Shown piece after piece: positions 1,525 to 53,883 of a stretch of 64,000 nt of DNA. Under the pieces are notes generated by a model, which was given only the letters and a program-made list of their open reading frames with translations, did not search any database and was not told where the DNA came from. The position numbers and the translations under genes are program-made. The stretch comes from Panulirus ornatus (Eukaryota; Arthropoda; Malacostraca; Decapoda; Palinuridae). The DNA lies in contig NC_092225.1 in assembly GCF_036320965.1 (NCBI RefSeq), positions 8,187,002 through 8,251,001 on the forward strand, written 5' to 3'. Each line of letters begins with the position of its first letter. Positions within the stretch are counted from its first letter, which is position 1.

Positions 1525-1620
1525 CACTGGGAGCGCGGCATGGAGACGGACGTGTGGGCCGGCATCAAGACCAACAAACTTACAGGCCTTAACGAGACGA
1601 TCGTTTGGTACTTCGCCTCG
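1525..1620 (+). CDS. coding exon A (first visible exon of the surface-protein gene)
   Basis: There are 32 codons, phase 0 at both ends. The acceptor is ...acggcag before 1525 and the donor is GTAAGC at 1621. The peptide starts HWERGMETDVW and ends TIVWYFAS, and it contains a sequon, NET. It has no initiating methionine context, and its acceptor implies at least one more exon upstream. The pyrimidine tract is modest, so the acceptor is slightly less certain than the others. Confidence 0.75.
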
Positions 1621-2974
1621 GTAAGCACCATCCTGGTTACAGATGTTAAGCTGTCATTTCTCACGTCTTGTTTCTGCCTGATGTATGTCTCTAACTGTGA
1701 GGCTTAAATGATTTCATTCATACTTTAACGAAAATCATAACTTGTATAGTCAAATTGCTATAGATACCCTTATATTTTTTGTTTTCTGTGAGAACTCCTT
1801 TACCTAACCGTTTTCTTTTATTTTCTCAGCCGATGACTAATGAAATATTGGGGCGTCTGAATATCCAAACTACTGACAAAGTTCCTATCAAACAGGAGAA
1901 ATATTTAACCAAGGTAAGGAAGAGAAATATTCACTGTCCTTAAAGTTTTGTCCTGTACTTGTCTATAAATCGTACTATCATGCTATCCTCCGTGAAATTA
2001 AAAATCTTACCAAACTCGAACTCAATACATTCAATCCCTACGGAATGTGTACGATGAATTTATACACATCCCCACGCCGACTGTCATAAAAACTCACTGC
2101 GGTTATAGTTGAAATCCTATTTCTTCCTGTTCATCAATACGCAATTCACAGTTTTATAGATTTCAGTATATCAATCATAAAATCTCTTTCTATAATTCCC
2201 CGTAAAGCACATTTTACATACAATGTATACTAAATTCAAACGCGATCTTTCCTGTGTTAGGAAAGATCCTACAACTTACATCGGCTTTGTGCCGGTAATG
2301 GCACACCGATCACACACACCCAACCTGTGTGTCATGAGCATATACAGTGCCGGGTTTTCTTTTAGAGAATTCATACCAGATTCTTCATTTTTGACTTCCT
2401 CTGTCCAGGAAGAGGGCTTGCCCCACGTGATCTACAACATCTACGGCTACGACAGCAAGGTCCCCACCACCCACAAGCACGACATCTCCCTGTGCTACGG
2501 CCAGAACCAGATGCGGCACTTCGTGTTCGACCTGCCGGCAAACGCCTTCAACAAGACGTTCAACATGCGTGAGAACCTCAAGTACGCCGTGGTGGAGGCG
2601 CTGAGCGAGGCGGGCAAGGTCTCCCCGCTGAGAATCAACAGGATAGAGGTACGTGGGGGCTTGTGCATGGTTACCGCGTAGCGTTCACCGCAAGAAAATC
2701 TGGAGTTACGAAGAACGAGTCATGGGAGTTAGGCGTTGTCAAATGTTGTGTGTGAGATGGAAAGATTGCATGTTTGTGGAATGACATCCAGCAACCTGTT
2801 TCTCATGAGGCAGAGAGGAAAGACAGTAACTTGGGCCAAAAGGGTGAAAGTAACAGCCACTGAAGTGTTGGCTCACTGCGTAGCCGTCAGTAACCTCTCC
2901 CTATACTAAGGCGGTTAATAGTGGCTGAACCTCCCTGGTCGATTACTACCCGCTGCCTTCCAGCCTTCCACAGA

Positions 2975-3184: not shown

Positions 3185-6100
3185 CCGATGGCTTTCATCA
3201 AAGTTATCAGCTAAGAGAAAAACTAGCGTTTCTGTACGAGTTCACTGATTCCGCATTCATGGTAGCAGAAGGCTACTTAATCCAACAGTCAATTAGCCCT
3301 AAGTGTATCGTAGTAATTTTCTCCATATTTCACTTCATTACGTCTGGCTACTTAATGTTCCCTGAGTGTCTTGGACGGTGACAAAAGCAATCTTTTGGTA
3401 AGTTATTCATGAAAATAAGTCCCAGTGCCCAGCACCCTTGGATGAGACACCACACACCCAATCTCCCTCGTAAGTCTCTGAGAGTCTGTGCATGACTCTG
3501 GCTGCCCTCTGTCAAGTGCCTGAGATACCGAGTCACAAGCCACAATTTGTCAGATTTCAATCCCATCGTGGACGCAATGATCTCATCTGCCATCGGCCGA
3601 AGCTTCAATAGTCTGTACACACTATCCCAGCAACAACAAACCGCAGTAAAATGCAAGACTTCTGGTCAAAAAGAAAGGAAAACAAAAGCATGTAGACAGA
3701 ACAGAAGTAACATGCATCCACCTAATGACTTGTCAGATCTGTGGTTTACCTGAGTGTGGTGGATTAATAGTGCCCAGATGTTTCCTAGACCTTATCGGGT
3801 ACACGGATATGTGTCAAGCACAAGTGGTACACATGGAGGCTGCTCAAACTTTTAATTACGAACTTTAAAAATCATGTAGAATTTATAATCATATACATCA
3901 ATCATATCATAATGAATATAACATATACCTTATAATTTTTATAAAGATAAAGCCTCTCTTTCCTTCCATACGATATCTCATGGAAATGTCCAATATTGTC
4001 CTACTTGGCGTAATTTGCCCAAGGTTGTGAACTCCTGACTTAAAAGATTCTTGTAAACTTTATATGTAATTGAACGCGTGTGTACCGTCGCTTTCAGCCG
4101 CTCTCGAAATAATTCCAATAATCAACAACCCTGTTGAAGAAAAAGTACTTTGCCTCATTCAAAGTAAAACGTTTGTCTACCAGTTTGTATCGCGACTGAA
4201 ATACCACAGATATATCTTTACGTAGCTGATCAGATTAAGGTTATCAGAGCCTTTGGTAATTCTGGATAATAGGTCATCTTTCTCTAATTCTTCCAGGGAA
4301 TATAAGTTTCTGTCGTTTAGTTGGCTCTCGTAGGATTTGTTTCTCAGTCCGGGAATCATCTTGGTAGCTCGCTGCTGTACCCTCTCTGTTATGTTTATTT
4401 CTTGTTTTTTCAAGCAAGGTGATAAAAACGAACACAATATTTACGGTGGTGACGCATCATTGAATTTCAGAAAGTGAGGATCAGTTCTTTAAGACTTGAG
4501 TTCGACTGTCTTACATGTGAGTTCCAAAATTTTGTTCGCTATTTTACTACTTCTATGCATTACTTACATATAGGCTAACGTGACCAGAAATGATCTATTT
4601 TTTTTTTCCCTGGCATACGCTTTATAGCTCACCGGAATTCATACTGCAGCTTGCCTTCTCGTACGTCATACTGATGTGTAAATTTTTGAACTGATCGATG
4701 ATGAAAATCATCTCCCACATGCGAGTCGAGGCCATCAAGCTGTCCATATCAGCTTGAAGCTGAAGGTGTTTAAATTTCTGTCGTACTGCATCACAAGTTC
4801 GCACCTCAATATCGTCTGCAAATTTTGAAGATAACTAACAAGGCAGCCCATTATGAATGTGGTTAAGATAAATGATTGTGGTGTCACTTTTTATTTACGG
4901 TCAGTCAACCAATTGTCTAACTACCGAAGTACGATCCTATGAATATGTGGCATTTGACTTAAATTTTGCTGTAGATGGCAAACCGCATTATCACTATCAT
5001 ACATACTTATTGTGTCATAGAAGCAATCAAAAATTTTTTTTTTGGACATTATCTATTTCGTCAAAAACTCTGCTGAAAATCTTATATTAAGTGGTGATCC
5101 ACTGAATGGTTTACAGTCTTGTTTCTAATGATGGTTTGCATAACCTAACCAACAACGGACTGAATGTTAACTGGGAGATGATAATCCGGGTAGAGACTTA
5201 ACATCTCTTTGTAATATCGGGGTTATACTGGAAAACTTCCAGTCAGAGGGAAACTTTCCTTCTCGCAAGTGACTTGCTGGAAAAAAATAAGGTCAAAAAC
5301 TTAACTTCCTCATTTTTAGCTTTTTTTCGTAAGTCTTGGATAAAACGTATACCCATTATACCCCGAATCACTTTACCAACGTCCATGGTGTTCATGGAAT
5401 AAATACGGTAACCACAGCTACATTAACAACCTACTCAGTGATCAATGACCATGAAATAAATACGGTTGCCCCCGTCACTTCGTTACTGTCGCTTTGAGTT
5501 CATGAACTAAATGCGGTAGCCCCGGTTACTTCAATAACGCACTCAGTAATCTTGAACCATGAAATAAGTACGGTAATCCCAGTTACTTCAGTAACGCACC
5601 CAGTCATTTTGAAGCATGATATGAATACGTAAACCCAATCACTTCAACAACATCTCCAGTGATCATTAATCGCAAAATATATATATATACCATAAAATGA
5701 ATATGGTATCCCGAGCCACTTCGTCAACGTACCAGCCGACCTTCGAACCATTTTAAAAGTACATCAAAAGGAGCAACTTCCTCAACGTCTCCAGCGTCCA
5801 TGAAGCAAGCACAGGAAAGCACAACTTCAGCCAGTAAGTAAAGTGTTCTCACGTCCCGGCAGGTCAGGAAGGCGACCTCAGCAGTGGAGGTCCTGTTTAC
5901 GCTGCTGGAGAAGTCGTCGGAGGTGAGCGACCTGCCCAACAACCTGATTGAGAACAGCATGCACAAAGCGGCCGCCGAGATACGCAAGACCATCGACGCC
6001 TCGCAGCTTGTGATCCTCGTCCGTATAGGAGGCAACCACACCCCGGTGAGTGTGTGGATGTGTCATTTTAGTCACCTCAGGACAGGGAAGGGCGTTCTCC

Positions 6101-9100
6101 TACATTCGTGGGGGATCTCATCTCTTGAACTTTACTATCATTCAACTTTTTCAAACTTCTGTATGTTATCAACTGTCACAGACTTCATCATTTAAGTTAT
6201 TCATTCTTTCCACTGCTCGTGTATAGAGAAATAATTTCTTTATACCATATCTATAACTTTTTTGTTTGATTTTACGTTATGGCCTCAGGCTCTTCAATCT
6301 ATACCATATCTATAACTTTTTTGTTTAATTTCACGTTATGGCCTTAGGCTCTTCAATCTATGCGTCTTTCGAAAATTTGTTCACCACTACATCATCAAAC
6401 TAGCTCAGGAAAACTTTAAGATTGTGATCAAGTCACCCCTTATTCTTCTCTCCTCCAAGATAGACAAATTTATGGCCTCTATTTCCTCTTAACTCAACCT
6501 CTCTTGATTATGGCAATATCTTTGTTGCCCACCTCTATCAGTTCCTTGTGCTTCAAAGCGCGGTCACCAAACTTAAGGATCATAAGTTAGCTTTGGTCTA
6601 AAACACGTTGTGGAGAGCTTGTTCAATATGCATTAAGTAAATGCGGTTCTGTCATTTGCCAGAAGACGTTTCTTTCTCTTTTACAATAATCAACCGAAGC
6701 GTGGCTCTGGCGACAGTTTCCGCAGCTTATTTCCTGGTAGACAACATCTACATTATTACTTTGCATTTACTGCCCTTAGACAGAATTTCATCAAGCATCT
6801 ATCAGGCTGACACTGAGTTTGTCGAGGTTCTCTCGTAAACCGATTGAATCCTTATCAACCTTTCTCTTCTTCATGACAACGGCAACATCCGCAAACATAT
6901 TTGGGTACGAGTTCAGTCCTTCCGGCAAGATACTTACAGAGATCAAGATGATCAGTGGTCAAAGGACCGAGCCATTTGGCAGGCTAGTGATAACACAAAT
7001 CCATATCTGGAGGGCTCCTCTGCTACGCGTTCTCTCTTCTCTTCCACTAGGACCATCTTCTCTCCTGCTCAAGGATCCAGCAGTTTAGAAAATTAACAAG
7101 ACACAACACTCCTCGATGTTGTTAAAATCTGCTCGTTTCTATGGCAGCAACAACTTCTCGTCCTAGAATTAAAACGCTTTTTCTGGTACTACGATACTAT
7201 TCCTCCTAGATTTAAAAAGCTTCTCTCTGGTACCAAAACCTGTTCTTCCTAGTATTAGAACCCTTCTCTAGTATTGAAATCTATTCGTCGTAGAATTAAC
7301 ATGCTTCTCTCTGGTCTTAACATCGTCTCTCCTCCCAGAATTACATTTTTCCGCCCCCCCCCCCCCCCAGTCAGCACTAGCGTCTTCCCTTCTTCCAACC
7401 TTATCATCCCTTCCCTTGGAAGGTTTATCAATATACTTTATCAATTCAGTAATAAAGATCACGTTCCTACCAGAATATGTTATTCATATCAGCTCTCTAC
7501 TAAAAACATGCTTCTCGTGTTCCTAACATTAACAGCTGTCCCTCACCTTGTCATGATAATCATCCGCCATTACCCCTCTGTCTCTACAACCCCGCAACAA
7601 TATTCCACCCCCGCCCTCCACAATTAGCATCTGTCCCTTTCTAACGAGAAAATATACATCAACACCTGTTTCCTCATTACTACCACGTATCCCACTAACA
7701 GTACCACTCTTGCCCGTCCCTCCCCCTAAACTTGGTGCAAGAACACATGTCCTCACTGCCAGGGTTCATATAAATCTTCTTGCAAACATGATCTAACATC
7801 TTTCCCCAAAGACGTCTTTTCTCCTTCCAGCATCAACACCCGACATCTTTTAACGCCTTTCCTCCAGCCATTAATATCTCTCCTTAGCCATAAGAAGAAA
7901 TTCACAAGGCCTTAATATCTTCCCATTCCCAACATTAACATCGTCTCAAACAATTCAAAGTAAGTCTGTCATTAATACTTGTCTTCCTAGTCAGTACCAC
8001 GTATTCTTCCAGCATTGGCATCTGCCCTTACGTTATCAACATCCGTGTTTCTTCCAGCATTAGCTATGCTCATACCGGCGCTAACACAGGTTCTCCTCCT
8101 CCACAATTCTTCCTCAGGATCCCAAGTTAACGATCACTCGCAAACTGGTGGCGCTGCCGGGCACGGTGAGAGAGGTCACGCGGGACGACGGATCCACACG
8201 CGGCACCCATCACCTCACCGGATACTCCTCAGGTAGGTGGGCACTCAGCTTCTCACCAGGTAGGTGGGCACTCAGTTCCACACCAGGTAGGTGGGCACTC
8301 AGTTCCACACCAGGTAGGTGGGTACTCAGTTCCACACCAGGTAGGTGGGCACTCAGTTCCACACCAGGTAGGTGGGCACTCAACTCCTCACCAGGTAGGT
8401 GGGCACTCAACTCCTCACCAGGTAGGTGGGCACTCAGTTCCACACCAGGTTGGTGGGCACGCTGTTCCACACCAGGTAGGTGGGCATTCAGTTCCACACC
8501 AGGTAGGTGGGCACTCAGTTCCACACCAGGTAGATGGGCCCACTGTTCCACACCAGGTTGGCGTGCTTTCAGTTCCACAACAGGTAAGTGGGCATCTCGT
8601 TACCCTTGCCCTAATATACCGGTGTCTTTACAACTGCGCAACACACCTACTTTGATTTAAATGTATGTTCACATTTAGCTTTATTATCAGCTGTCTTCAT
8701 AATTTCCCTGGTTCCTACTTGCCTTTACGCTTCCCCAGGTCACCAAGTACTTTTACACCTGCATTAAGCCCTATCTACCAGCTGCCTTCCAGTCGCCTCT
8801 GGTTACTGTTCTCAAATCTGCTCTAGATACTAGATGCAATCATACCTGCACTAGTTACTGAATATCTTTATCCCTGCCCTAGTGACTCTTACCTTCACAT
8901 CTGCTCTAGCTACAGACTGTCTTCATAACCGCCCTTGGTAGCGGCTGGCATAATACCTAACCTAGTTGCTAATTACTTTCATAACTGACCAAACTACTTA
9001 TTGTCTTTGTATCTGATGTAATTACTAGTTACCTTCTTATCTGCCTTAGCTACCGGCTGTAGTATATTACGCCTGCCCTAGCTACTAACTGTACTCTATC

Positions 9101-9199
9101 ATTACATGAATTATTTTCAACGCTATAGTTAAAACCTGCCCGATCCTGGGAACCCGATGAAACGAGTATCAGAAAAGTGCAACTTTTAACATCTAATGC

Positions 9200-9291
<92 letters not shown>

Positions 9292-9400
9292 TCAGTTTAC
9301 TTTTCCCACTGCAGGTGATATGGCAGGTCTTGCGTTCGGAATGCTGCTCGTCGGTGGCCTGGCGGGCTACGGCGCCCTCTACTACTCCAGCAGGAAGTAG
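1525..9400 (+). CDS. 3' part of a multi-exon gene for a single-pass (or GPI-anchored) surface protein, family not recognised
   Basis: Six exons with GT/AG borders join in one frame and give about 267 visible residues, or about 384 if the fifth exon runs to 8583. The beginning is left of the window. The product looks extracellular. It has N-glycosylation sequons NET in the first visible exon, NKT in the third and NHT in the fourth, and few cysteines. It ends with a hydrophobic segment (MAGLAFGMLLVGGLAGYGAL) and a tail of about six residues ending SSRK. A GPI signal is an alternative, because small residues (SSGGD) precede the hydrophobic stretch, but the basic tail favours a true membrane span. 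The segment with FDLPANAF, then RENLKYAVVEAL and RINRIEV, looks like a folded ectodomain module. It faintly recalls the membrane-proximal region of fibrocystin/PKHD1-like proteins, but I could not verify this. Coding exons are GC-richer than the flanks. All internal junctions are phase 0 except the last, which is phase 1. I am confident it is a gene and unsure of its function. Confidence 0.8.
1830..1913 (+). CDS. coding exon B
   Basis: There are 28 codons, phase 0 at both ends. A strong pyrimidine tract and CAG end at 1829, and the donor GTAAGG begins at 1914. The peptide runs from PMTNEILGRL to EKYLTK. It is separated from exon A by an intron of only 209 bp. Confidence 0.8.
2244..2268. repeat. 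perfect 10-bp inverted repeat with 5-nt loop
   Basis: gatctttcct and aggaaagatc flank gtgtt. It lies in the intron before exon C. No function is implied. Confidence 0.7.
2409..2648 (+). CDS. coding exon C, ectodomain core
   Basis: There are 80 codons, phase 0 at both ends, with acceptor ...cctctgtccag before 2409 and donor GTACGT at 2649. The open frame continues upstream to 2223, but the good acceptor, the rise in GC and the sharp change to high GC at the third codon position mark the exon start at 2409. The peptide starts EEGLPHVIYNIYGY. It has one cysteine (SLCYG), a sequon (NKT) and the alternating hydrophobic stretch RENLKYAVVEAL, and it ends RINRIE. This is the longest and most protein-like exon of the gene. 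Confidence 0.85.
2700..2885. repeat. dispersed repeat, copy 1 (second copy near 57015-57175)
   Basis: Blocks shared with 57015-57175 include a gttgtcaa-tgttgt stretch and a cagccactgaagtg-tggct stretch, in the same order and spacing. Both copies are followed on the right by a (GA)n tract. It could be a short interspersed element with a GA-rich tail, but I see no internal promoter boxes I trust. Confidence 0.5.
2972..3182. repeat. compound GA / GGAGA / GAAGA microsatellite
   Basis: (GA)n passes into about ten GGAGA pentamers, then about ten AGAGA-type pentamers with a single A shift, and back to (GA)n. It is purine-only on the + strand for about 210 bp. The Arg/Glu and Ser/Leu open frames across it are artefacts of the repeat. 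It lies in intron 3. Confidence 0.95.
4030..5095 (-). mobile_element. decayed LINE reverse-transcriptase fragment (CR1/jockey-like), in intron 3
   Basis: Reading the minus strand from about 5095 down, I see in changing frames: a DFSRVFDE-like block (reverse-transcriptase motif near DFSKAFDKV), WLTDRK, LNHIHNGLP, and then FADD at about 4815-4830, the catalytic motif. These are followed by an LQADMDSL block, by ATKMIPGLRNKSYESQL with NLYSLEE (the conserved thumb region), and by NEAKYFFFNRVVDYWN near 4100-4150. Stops and frameshifts are frequent and the part between WLTDRK and FADD is deleted. It is a dead, 5'-truncated copy. Its orientation is opposite to the host gene. Confidence 0.8.
5355..5806. 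repeat. degenerate ~57-bp tandem array just upstream of exon D
   Basis: About eight diverged units share the blocks catgaaataaatacggta, a pyrimidine-rich cacttc stretch, aacg and cagt. One unit is expanded by a short TA run near 5676. The last units lie within 60 bp of the exon D acceptor. Confidence 0.7.
5863..6045 (+). CDS. coding exon D
   Basis: There are 61 codons, phase 0 at both ends, with acceptor ...cgtcccggcag before 5863 and donor GTGAGT at 6047 minus one (exon ends at 6045 in CCG). The peptide runs from VRKATSAVEVLFTLLEK through a helical-looking middle (ENSMHKAAAEIRKTID) to a short beta-like end with the sequon NHT. A degenerate 57-bp tandem array ends only about 55 bp before the exon. 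Confidence 0.82.
6241..6366. repeat. 59-bp tandem duplication
   Basis: tataccatatctataac begins at 6241 and again at 6300. The two copies differ at only a few bases. It lies in intron 4. Confidence 0.85.
7130..8110. repeat. pyrimidine-rich degenerate tandem region of intron 4
   Basis: Motifs like cttcctagaattaaaac and ccagcattaacatc recur about every 28-60 bp, with strong C/T bias on the + strand. A poly-C run lies at 7351-7368. Units are too diverged for exact borders. No coding is seen. Confidence 0.55.
8118..8232 (+). CDS. coding exon E, with a repeated donor site (exon may extend to 8583)
   Basis: The acceptor is ...cttcctcag before 8118. The shortest form has 38 codons plus one base and uses donor GTAGGT at 8233, ending in phase 1, which matches exon F. 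The peptide starts DPKLTITRKLVALPG and ends LTGYSS. The frame stays open to 8660 through thirteen 9-residue repeats. The strongest donor match (CAG followed by GTAAGTG) is at 8584, in the same phase. A 466-bp exon that includes the repeats is therefore at least as plausible as the short one. The sequence alone cannot say which donor is used, or whether several are. Confidence 0.75.
8233..8583 (+). repeat. 27-bp minisatellite at the exon E donor, 13 copies, possibly coding
   Basis: The consensus unit is about ggtaggtgggcactcagttc plus ccacacca. Units begin at 8233 and follow every 27 bp without a length change up to 8584, where the array ends in ggtaagt. In the exon frame each unit reads GRWALSSTP with small changes (GRWALNSSP, GRWVLSSTP, GWWARCSTP, GRWAFSSTP). 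Each unit starts with a donor-like GT. If translated it would be a Ser/Thr/Pro-rich, tryptophan-containing stalk right before the membrane segment. The minus strand is also open, as expected for a unit length divisible by three, so openness alone is weak evidence for coding. Confidence 0.95.
8690..9110. repeat. degenerate ~28-bp tandem array of intron 5
   Basis: The recurring unit is close to ctgccctagctactaact plus gtcttcataa, seen at least ten times with substitutions and small indels. It may be the same ancestral repeat as the array in intron 4. Confidence 0.65.
9204..9286. repeat. (GA)n microsatellite
   Basis: A pure GA dinucleotide run directly upstream of the last coding exon's pyrimidine tract. 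Confidence 0.98.
9315..9400 (+). CDS. last coding exon F: membrane segment and stop
   Basis: The acceptor is ...ttttcccactgcag before 9315, with an excellent pyrimidine tract. The first two bases complete a glycine codon split with exon E. Then come D, M and the hydrophobic stretch AGLAFGMLLVGGLAGYGALYY, the tail SSRK and stop TAG at 9398-9400. Glycines recur every three or four residues in the segment, as in helix-packing membrane spans. A (GA)n tract ends at 9286, only 28 bp upstream of the exon. Confidence 0.85.
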
Positions 9401-52599: not shown

Positions 52600-53883
52600 T
52601 CACCTGTGTTGTGTGAGCGCATCATTGGTGTTGTGTGAGTGCATCATTGGTGTTGTGTGAGTGCATGATTGGTGTTGTGTGAGTGCATCATTGATGTTGT
52701 GTGAGTGCATGATTGGTGTTGTGTGAGTAAATCATTGGTGTTGTGTGAGTGCATCATTGGTGTTGCGTGAGTGCATCATTGGTGTTGTGTGACTACATCA
52801 TTGATGTTGTGTGAGTGAATGATTTATGTTGTATGAGTGCATGATTGGTGTTGTGTGAGTGCATCAATGGTGTTGTGTGAGTGCATTATTGGTGTTGTGT
52901 TAGTGCCTCATTGGTGTTGTGTGAGTGCATCATTGGTGTTGTGTGAGTGCATCTTCGGTGTTGTGTGAGTGCATCACTGATGTTGTGTGAGTGTATGATT
53001 GGTGTTGTGTGAGTGCATGATTGATGTTGTGTGAGTACATCAATGGTGTTATGTGAGTGCATGATTGTTGTGTGAGTGCATCATTGGTGTTGTGTGAGTA
53101 CATTGATGGTATTGCGTGAGTGCATGATCGGTGTTGTGTGAGTGTATGATTGGTGGTGTGTGAATGCATGATTGGTGTTGTGTTAGTGCATGATTGGTGT
53201 TGTGTGAGTGCATGATTGGTGCTGTGTGAGTACATCGATGGTGTTGTCTGAGTGCATCATTGGAGTTGTGTGAGTGTATCGATGGCGTTGTGTGAGTACA
53301 TCGATATTGTTGTTTTAGTGCATGACTGGTGTTGTGTAAGTACAACTATGGTGTTGTGTTAGTGCATCATTGGTGTTGTGTGAGTGCAACTATGGTGTTG
53401 TGTGAGTTCATCGATGGTGTTGTGTGAGTGCATCAATGGTGTTGTGTGAGTGCATGATTGGTGTTGTGTAAGTGCATCAATGGTGATGTGTGAGTGCATC
53501 AATGGTGTTGTGTGAGTACACCGATGGTGATGTGTGAGTGCATCGATGGTGTTGTGTGAGTGCATCAATGGTGTTGCGTGAGTGCATCATTGGTGTTGTG
53601 TGAGTACATCGATGGTGATGTGTGAGTGCATCGATGGTGTTGTGTGAGTGCATCGATGGTGTTGAGTGAGTACATCATTGGTGATGTGTGAGTGCATCAT
53701 TTGTGTTGTGTGAGTGCACCACTGGTGTTGTGTGAGTGCATCGATTGTGTTGTGCGAGTGCATCGATGGTGATGTGTGAGTGCATCATTTGTATTGTGTG
53801 AGTGCACCATTGGTGTTGTGCGAGTGCATCGATGGTGTCGTGTGAGTACATCATTGGTGTTGTGTGAGTGAATCAATAGTGTG
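52600..53883. repeat. 22-bp minisatellite, about 58 copies, with 88-bp higher-order period
   Basis: The unit is gtgcatcattggtgttgtgt plus ga. Units vary mainly at atcatt/atgatt/atcgat/atcaat and at gtgc/gtac. Near the right end the variant pattern beginning gtgatgtgtgagtgcatcat recurs at 53681 and 53769, exactly four units apart. A partial unit is lost near 53065. All frames are open on the minus strand (His/Thr/Ser-rich), so the long open frames there are not genes. Confidence 0.95.

Follow-up and report, generated by a model that had tools for sequence, protein, structure and literature searches.

The host gene and its exons

The window analysed here was a stretch of 64,000 nucleotides from the genome of the lobster Panulirus ornatus. 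It carried exons A to F of a single gene, together with a tandem array that began at the end of exon E. The exons and the intron between the last two of them were as follows.

1525..1620, plus strand: exon A, upstream, same gene
1830..1913, plus strand: exon B
2409..2648, plus strand: exon C
5863..6045, plus strand: exon D
8118..8232, plus strand: exon E, the last extracellular exon, 115 nt, with ...GYSS and one base of the next codon, for Gly, at its end (phase 1)
8233..9314, plus strand: intron E-F according to the gene model, within which lie the array and a tract of AG dinucleotides
9315..9400, plus strand: coding part of exon F, with a transmembrane segment (predicted by eye) and the stop codon

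A first protein search, in which the 267-residue product of exons A to F served as the query, found four relatives. A profile search built on four sequences, of which the first carried the array, returned 20 proteins at E <= 0.001. The C-terminal 267 residues of P0007, a 750-aa Panulirus ornatus protein from NCBI, corresponded to exons A to F joined at 8233 with no mismatch, and we infer that this protein is the public gene model of the array locus. Its junction (...GYSSG|DMAGLA) led from 8233 to 9315 and included zero array residues. This is a positive fact on donor choice, with the limit that gene models can miss minor isoforms. Exon E, identical to the P0007 residues, was placed by tblastn at C2:8195119 (contig C2, on which the window lies), and the host gene spanned C2:8163949-8196398. 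The phase 1 left by the 115-nt exon E was continued by exon F at 9315. Exons E and F were genuine, and the array repeated a genuine 5' splice site, as the original prediction had proposed.

The precomputed domains of P0007 placed the host in a crustacean family, DUF7959 / PF25898-PF25899, where the name DUF7959 is the database label of P0020. The window product was 33-63% identical to the other listed members and contained the C-terminal G-D-M-(A/G)-G-L membrane segment of the family. The host product resembles a type I membrane protein. In Pfam scans of P0003, P0006, and P0007, neither PF25898 nor PF25899 came up; a Pfam scan of the partial protein gave only a sub-threshold DbpA hit (E 0.069), and a PDB search gave no match. 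The AG dinucleotide tract (9203-9286, 42.5 copies) stopped 27 nt short of the acceptor AG of exon F (9313-9314), a position that left little space for the branch point and the pyrimidine tract of this acceptor.

Structure of the donor-bearing minisatellite

Tandem Repeats Finder described positions 8230-8594 as an array of period 27 with 13.5 copies, 89% match, and 0% indels. The array started within exon E, of which it took in the final three bases. Its features were as follows.

8230..8594, plus strand: 27-bp minisatellite, consensus CAGGTAGGTGGGCACTCAGTTCCACAC (Tandem Repeats Finder)
8233..8234, plus strand: first donor GT, used in the gene model (P0007 junction YSSG|DMAGLA)
8260..8558, plus strand: twelve inner donor-like GTs (8260 to 8557), nine of them with the 9-mer of the first donor and three weakened
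8584..8585, plus strand: fourteenth GT, consensus CAGGTAAGT; the last copy, to which it belongs, is partial (15/27 bases match the unit)

The GT dinucleotide recurred every 27 nt from 8233 through 8260 to 8584 without drift, as had been claimed, and was preceded by CAG in 14/14 cases. Ten of the 14 donors had the identical 9-mer CAGGTAGGT, including all of donors 1-8, and the weakened donors were those at 8449, 8530, and 8557. The fourteenth donor was indeed the best match to the consensus and the strongest of all (12.6 bits and -13.2 kcal/mol of U1 pairing vs 10.0 bits and -12.9 kcal/mol), where the bit scores came from a donor matrix and the pairing energies were computed. By the same matrix, 11/14 donors scored at least 10 bits, and 12 sites of at least 8 bits fell within the 365-nt array vs 4 in the next densest plus-strand stretch of equal length in the window. 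The clustering of donors in the array is not due to chance. A donor-like GT was also present within exon E at 8166 (ACGGTGAGA, 8.5 bits).

Just after the donor start, GGTGGG was found in 11 of the 13 full units, ten times as GTAGGTGGG and once as GTTGGTGGG. With respect to the minisatellite core, GGGCAGGANG, the unit carried GGGCACTCAG, which was a partial match only.

All 14 donors left phase 1, and the frame continuing exon E was open across the whole array. Any of these donors would accordingly preserve the reading frame up to exon F, and the original prediction was right on each of these points. In the background, the mean number of matches to the unit was 6.5 and the 99th percentile was 12. 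The 27 nt after the last donor exceeded this percentile with 15 matches, and the final 27 bases of exon E, CAG included, stayed near the mean with 8. Hence the unit consists of intron sequence save the exonic CAG before the donor; it is not duplicated coding sequence.

The exon E-F junction in related proteins and in a paralog

According to the original prediction, the full array could be coding and could add a variable stalk next to the membrane segment. On this reading, the last or several of the donors are used, up to 13 GRWALSSTP blocks (117 residues) stand by the membrane, and the copy number sets the length. The uniform phase, the open frame, and the strength of the last donor all fit such a stalk, but the gene model used 8233 only and most of the relatives lacked it as well. 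In 16 of the 19 related crustacean proteins, G-D-M-(A/G)-G-L came straight after the exon E motif. Two others, P0004 and P0015, departed from the family sequence before the exon E-F junction. P0020 (Penaeus vannamei) departed exactly at the junction and had other residues after the Gly; in its model, the tail appears to run on through the intron and then into a shifted frame. The motifs GRWA, RWALS, and LSSTPG, which would mark repeat-encoded residues, were found in none of the 19 other family proteins, P0020 included.

The 19 relatives were not independent, as several came from Penaeus and five (P0005, P0012, and P0019-P0021) resembled the paralog described below and had a longer tail. They were compared as proteins, which makes the junction visible and not the content of the intron, be it an array or none. 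Four of them (P0006, P0011, P0013, and P0014) were proteins of 708-735 aa located on contigs of 2.3-2.6 kb, which suggests that they derive from transcripts.

The paralog was located outside the window, on the minus strand, in pieces from C2:8139000 to 8113015 that were 32-48% identical to P0007, with 70% in the short last piece. It stood head to head with the host gene, and approximately 25 kb separated the first host exon from the nearest detected exon of the paralog. An intron of about 227 nt occupied the matching place, also in phase 1, and had a single donor (...GYQSG|GTGAGT, then CAG|GTGACATG), where the paralogous exon E was chosen by eye among the translated frames. Tandem Repeats Finder reported no tandem array in the E-F intron of the paralog.

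Tests for coding within the array

To look at selection on the copies, we compared the 13 full units with the consensus unit and found 24 changes, 16 of them distinct. In the stalk frame, 4/16 distinct changes were synonymous, with 5.1 expected (P of at least this many, 0.88), and each of the other two array frames had 5 synonymous changes among the 16. When all 24 changes were counted, the three frames had 6, 10, and 6. Since synonymous changes were at the random level, there was no sign of protein-level selection on the copies. No stop codon arose among the changes, and random placement avoided stops in 54% of trials.

Several properties that made the array look special were commonplace in the window. 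The open frame was rejected as evidence of coding: 61% of the 27-mers sampled from the window were stop-free in a fixed frame, and two of the three array frames were open. The absence of length drift was likewise rejected as a sign of selection, as 0% indels was also found in 4 of the 9 other window arrays with at least 4 copies. By simple reckoning, one period in three is divisible by three. An open frame and in-phase donors are by themselves no proof of coding.

A search for a stalk-bearing protein with exon E, the array, and exon F as the query (183 aa) considered only proteins of approximately 101-320 aa and gave P0022 as its sole match (E 0.39). We rejected P0022 as a stalk protein: its short TPGRWAN-type repeat covered 23% of the query at 55% identity, and the remainder looked unrelated by eye. 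Both this search and the profile search scored only the 7995 candidates that shared most words. The longest protein returned by the profile search had 775 aa, and the full-array isoform, with 867 aa, may lie beyond the lengths covered by both searches, so its absence from the candidates scored is weak evidence.

RNA folding, predicted in one setting, gave an accessibility of 0.0022 for the first donor and 0.0025 for the last one, with a median of 0.00014 for the inner donors and 0.012 for the inner site 8530. The higher values of the first and last donors compared to most of the inner ones would be in line with a coding stalk. We rejected RNA accessibility as the cause of first-donor use, since the site at 8530 was higher, the inner median was equally low in 11/100 spacer shuffles, and the z value of the array fold was only -1.56. 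Given the gene model, the junction of the relatives, the random level of synonymous changes, and an intron-derived unit, we consider it very improbable that a stalk is built through use of the last donor or of several donors. In general, a coding or variable stalk was unsupported and is improbable.

A bolder form of this idea would make the array a live in-frame length module. In this case, some tissues or individuals would use the later donors, and the stalk would grow by 9 residues per step according to allele length and donor choice, with the relatives being stalkless. We regard this as improbable.

The CAG|GT core was unchanged in 13/13 full units and received none of the 16 distinct changes, against an expectation of 2.9 (P 0.022, uncorrected, this being one test among several). 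Constancy of this kind may reflect maintenance of the donors. It would fit a regulatory role of the array as a donor cluster, in which 13 spare donors draw U1 snRNP and G-run factors, strengthen exon E or guard the pre-mRNA, and the array length tunes the mRNA. The GGTGGG runs of most units would also suit this role. However, three inner donors were decayed, the paralog intron had no array, and the wider donor window (-3..+6) was not significantly protected, with 3/16 changes against 5.3 expected (P 0.12). A regulatory function is therefore unlikely in our opinion.

Proposed origin and comparison with known systems

We consider it highly probable that the array is a local, intron-born minisatellite that was seeded at a real donor and is normally spliced out, perhaps with rare retention of one unit. 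In this scheme, a tandem duplication at the 5' splice site of exon E would have given rise to the minisatellite. The spliceosome would normally pick the first, exon-defining donor at 8233, the array would leave with the intron, and the protein would be unchanged. Were splicing to slip now and then to one of the later donors, the protein would gain 9-residue blocks with no frame break. Since all the copies are in phase and free of stops, such slips would keep the frame, and there would be little selection against the array. The strength of the last donor, the constant CAG|GT core, and the departure of P0020 at the junction speak against this scheme. Presumably, the RNA follows the gene model, slips are rare, and the array is of recent origin.

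The human IFI6 gene (also 6-16) carries a 12-bp repeat unit that is in frame. Two of its downstream repeat units act as splice donors (PMC4526556, citing Turri et al. 1995, Nucleic Acids Res 23:1854). In IFI6 as in the lobster, a minisatellite supplies several donors, there with protein isoforms as a result; the use of downstream donors was reported for IFI6, whereas the lobster gene model used the first donor only.

Among the closest counterparts were the amphioxus mirages, which are minisatellite-like duplications of exon-intron boundaries in Adh3 (units of 10-72 bp) and two globin genes (PMC3087553). In the globin genes BflGb6 and BflGb9 the mirage units were 150-160 bp, and the original Adh3 reports are cited in the same paper. 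The units often carried AG/GT, RT-PCR indicated regular splicing, the lengths were unstable, and the units at the edges escaped homogenisation (PMC3087553). The lobster array was similar in its tandem copies at a boundary, its AG/GT units, and its divergent last units, and its gene model predicts regular splicing as well. In contrast, length and somatic instability were measured for the mirages, the BflGb6 units copy the 3' intron side, and the lobster unit has three exonic bases with all copies in frame.

In intron 18 of human ABCA7, the first GT of a 25-bp VNTR is the canonical donor of exon 18 (PMC5954066). One-unit retention was 2 +/- 1%, and longer arrays led to more skipping of exon 19 (PMC5954066). 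As this retention was measured on transcripts subject to decay, the true rate of slips may be higher. The lobster array was similar in unit length, in the role of its first GT, and, going by the gene model, in first-donor splicing. However, 25 is not divisible by three, and a retained ABCA7 unit causes a frameshift; the polymorphism of the VNTR and its effects on expression were measured as well. The 31-bp VNTR of human CBS is numbered c.1444_1467+7 (PMC2630376), which implies that its unit spans an exon-intron boundary, so the location was apparently alike and the unit length different. Earthworm metallothionein genes have intronic minisatellites that were not placed at a donor in the passages available (PMC12783039). 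A table in PMC2408603 names GTAAGT as a hotspot of indels, which might explain why duplications are seeded at donors.

A low level of modular slippage in the lobster, in which the first donor is dominant and the next few account for a few per cent of transcripts and add 9 or 18 residues, would be compatible with the splicing-out of the array described above. The identical 9-mers of donors 1-8, the retention in ABCA7, and the two downstream donors of IFI6 point in this direction. On the other side, no isoform with 9 or 18 additional residues was found among the proteins searched (7995 candidates scored), and the amphioxus mirages were spliced regularly. Most of the inner lobster donors were also predicted to be less accessible than the first, but the spacer-shuffled control differed weakly from them. 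We consider such slippage quite possible, with the balance tipped slightly against it.

The published boundary duplications of amphioxus, ABCA7, and IFI6 show that the array was overstated as an unusual route to protein length variation. It was also not the first invertebrate case, as the mirages precede it (PMC3087553). A narrow literature search found no crustacean case of a donor-repeating minisatellite, which is a weak statement. The lobster array extends the mirage and ABCA7/IFI6 kind of repeat to a decapod in which every copy is in frame. Unlike in ABCA7, slips would be expected to escape nonsense-mediated decay, and therefore the error rate of donor choice among near-identical sites would be readable directly from RNA. 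New introns have been suggested to arise from mirages (PMC3087553), and the array locus could be followed in this light.

Genomic setting

A search of the lobster's own 2.65-Gb genome located the array once, where counts are lower bounds. Two other matches with 71% identity belonged to different minisatellites, with units of 31 and 23 bp. Genome-wide, tandem triplets of CAGGTRRGT numbered 10,830 vs 2,114 for the reversed pattern, and single words numbered 92,621 vs 49,869, so that the in-array share was 2.8 times that of the reversed word; as the matches overlap, these figures do not give the number of arrays. Arrays of donor-like words are thus common, and their frequency is somewhat higher than would be predicted from the reversed word. 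At 9 loci from 8 non-randomly chosen neighbourhoods, inspection by eye of the 120 nt that precede the first word revealed no exon; at some loci this stretch still lay inside the array, which makes it a weak test of whether minisatellites are seeded at donors throughout the genome. Given how many arrays and exon ends there are, it would be expected that some arrays begin at a genuine donor.

Within the window, minisatellites with a period of at least 10 accounted for 26 rows and 6.7% of the length. One of the arrays, at 52606-53882, had 58 copies of a 22-bp unit (GTGTTGTGTGAGTGCATCATTG) that contained GTGAGT. The window also contained many long dinucleotide microsatellites of the AT, TG, and GA types.
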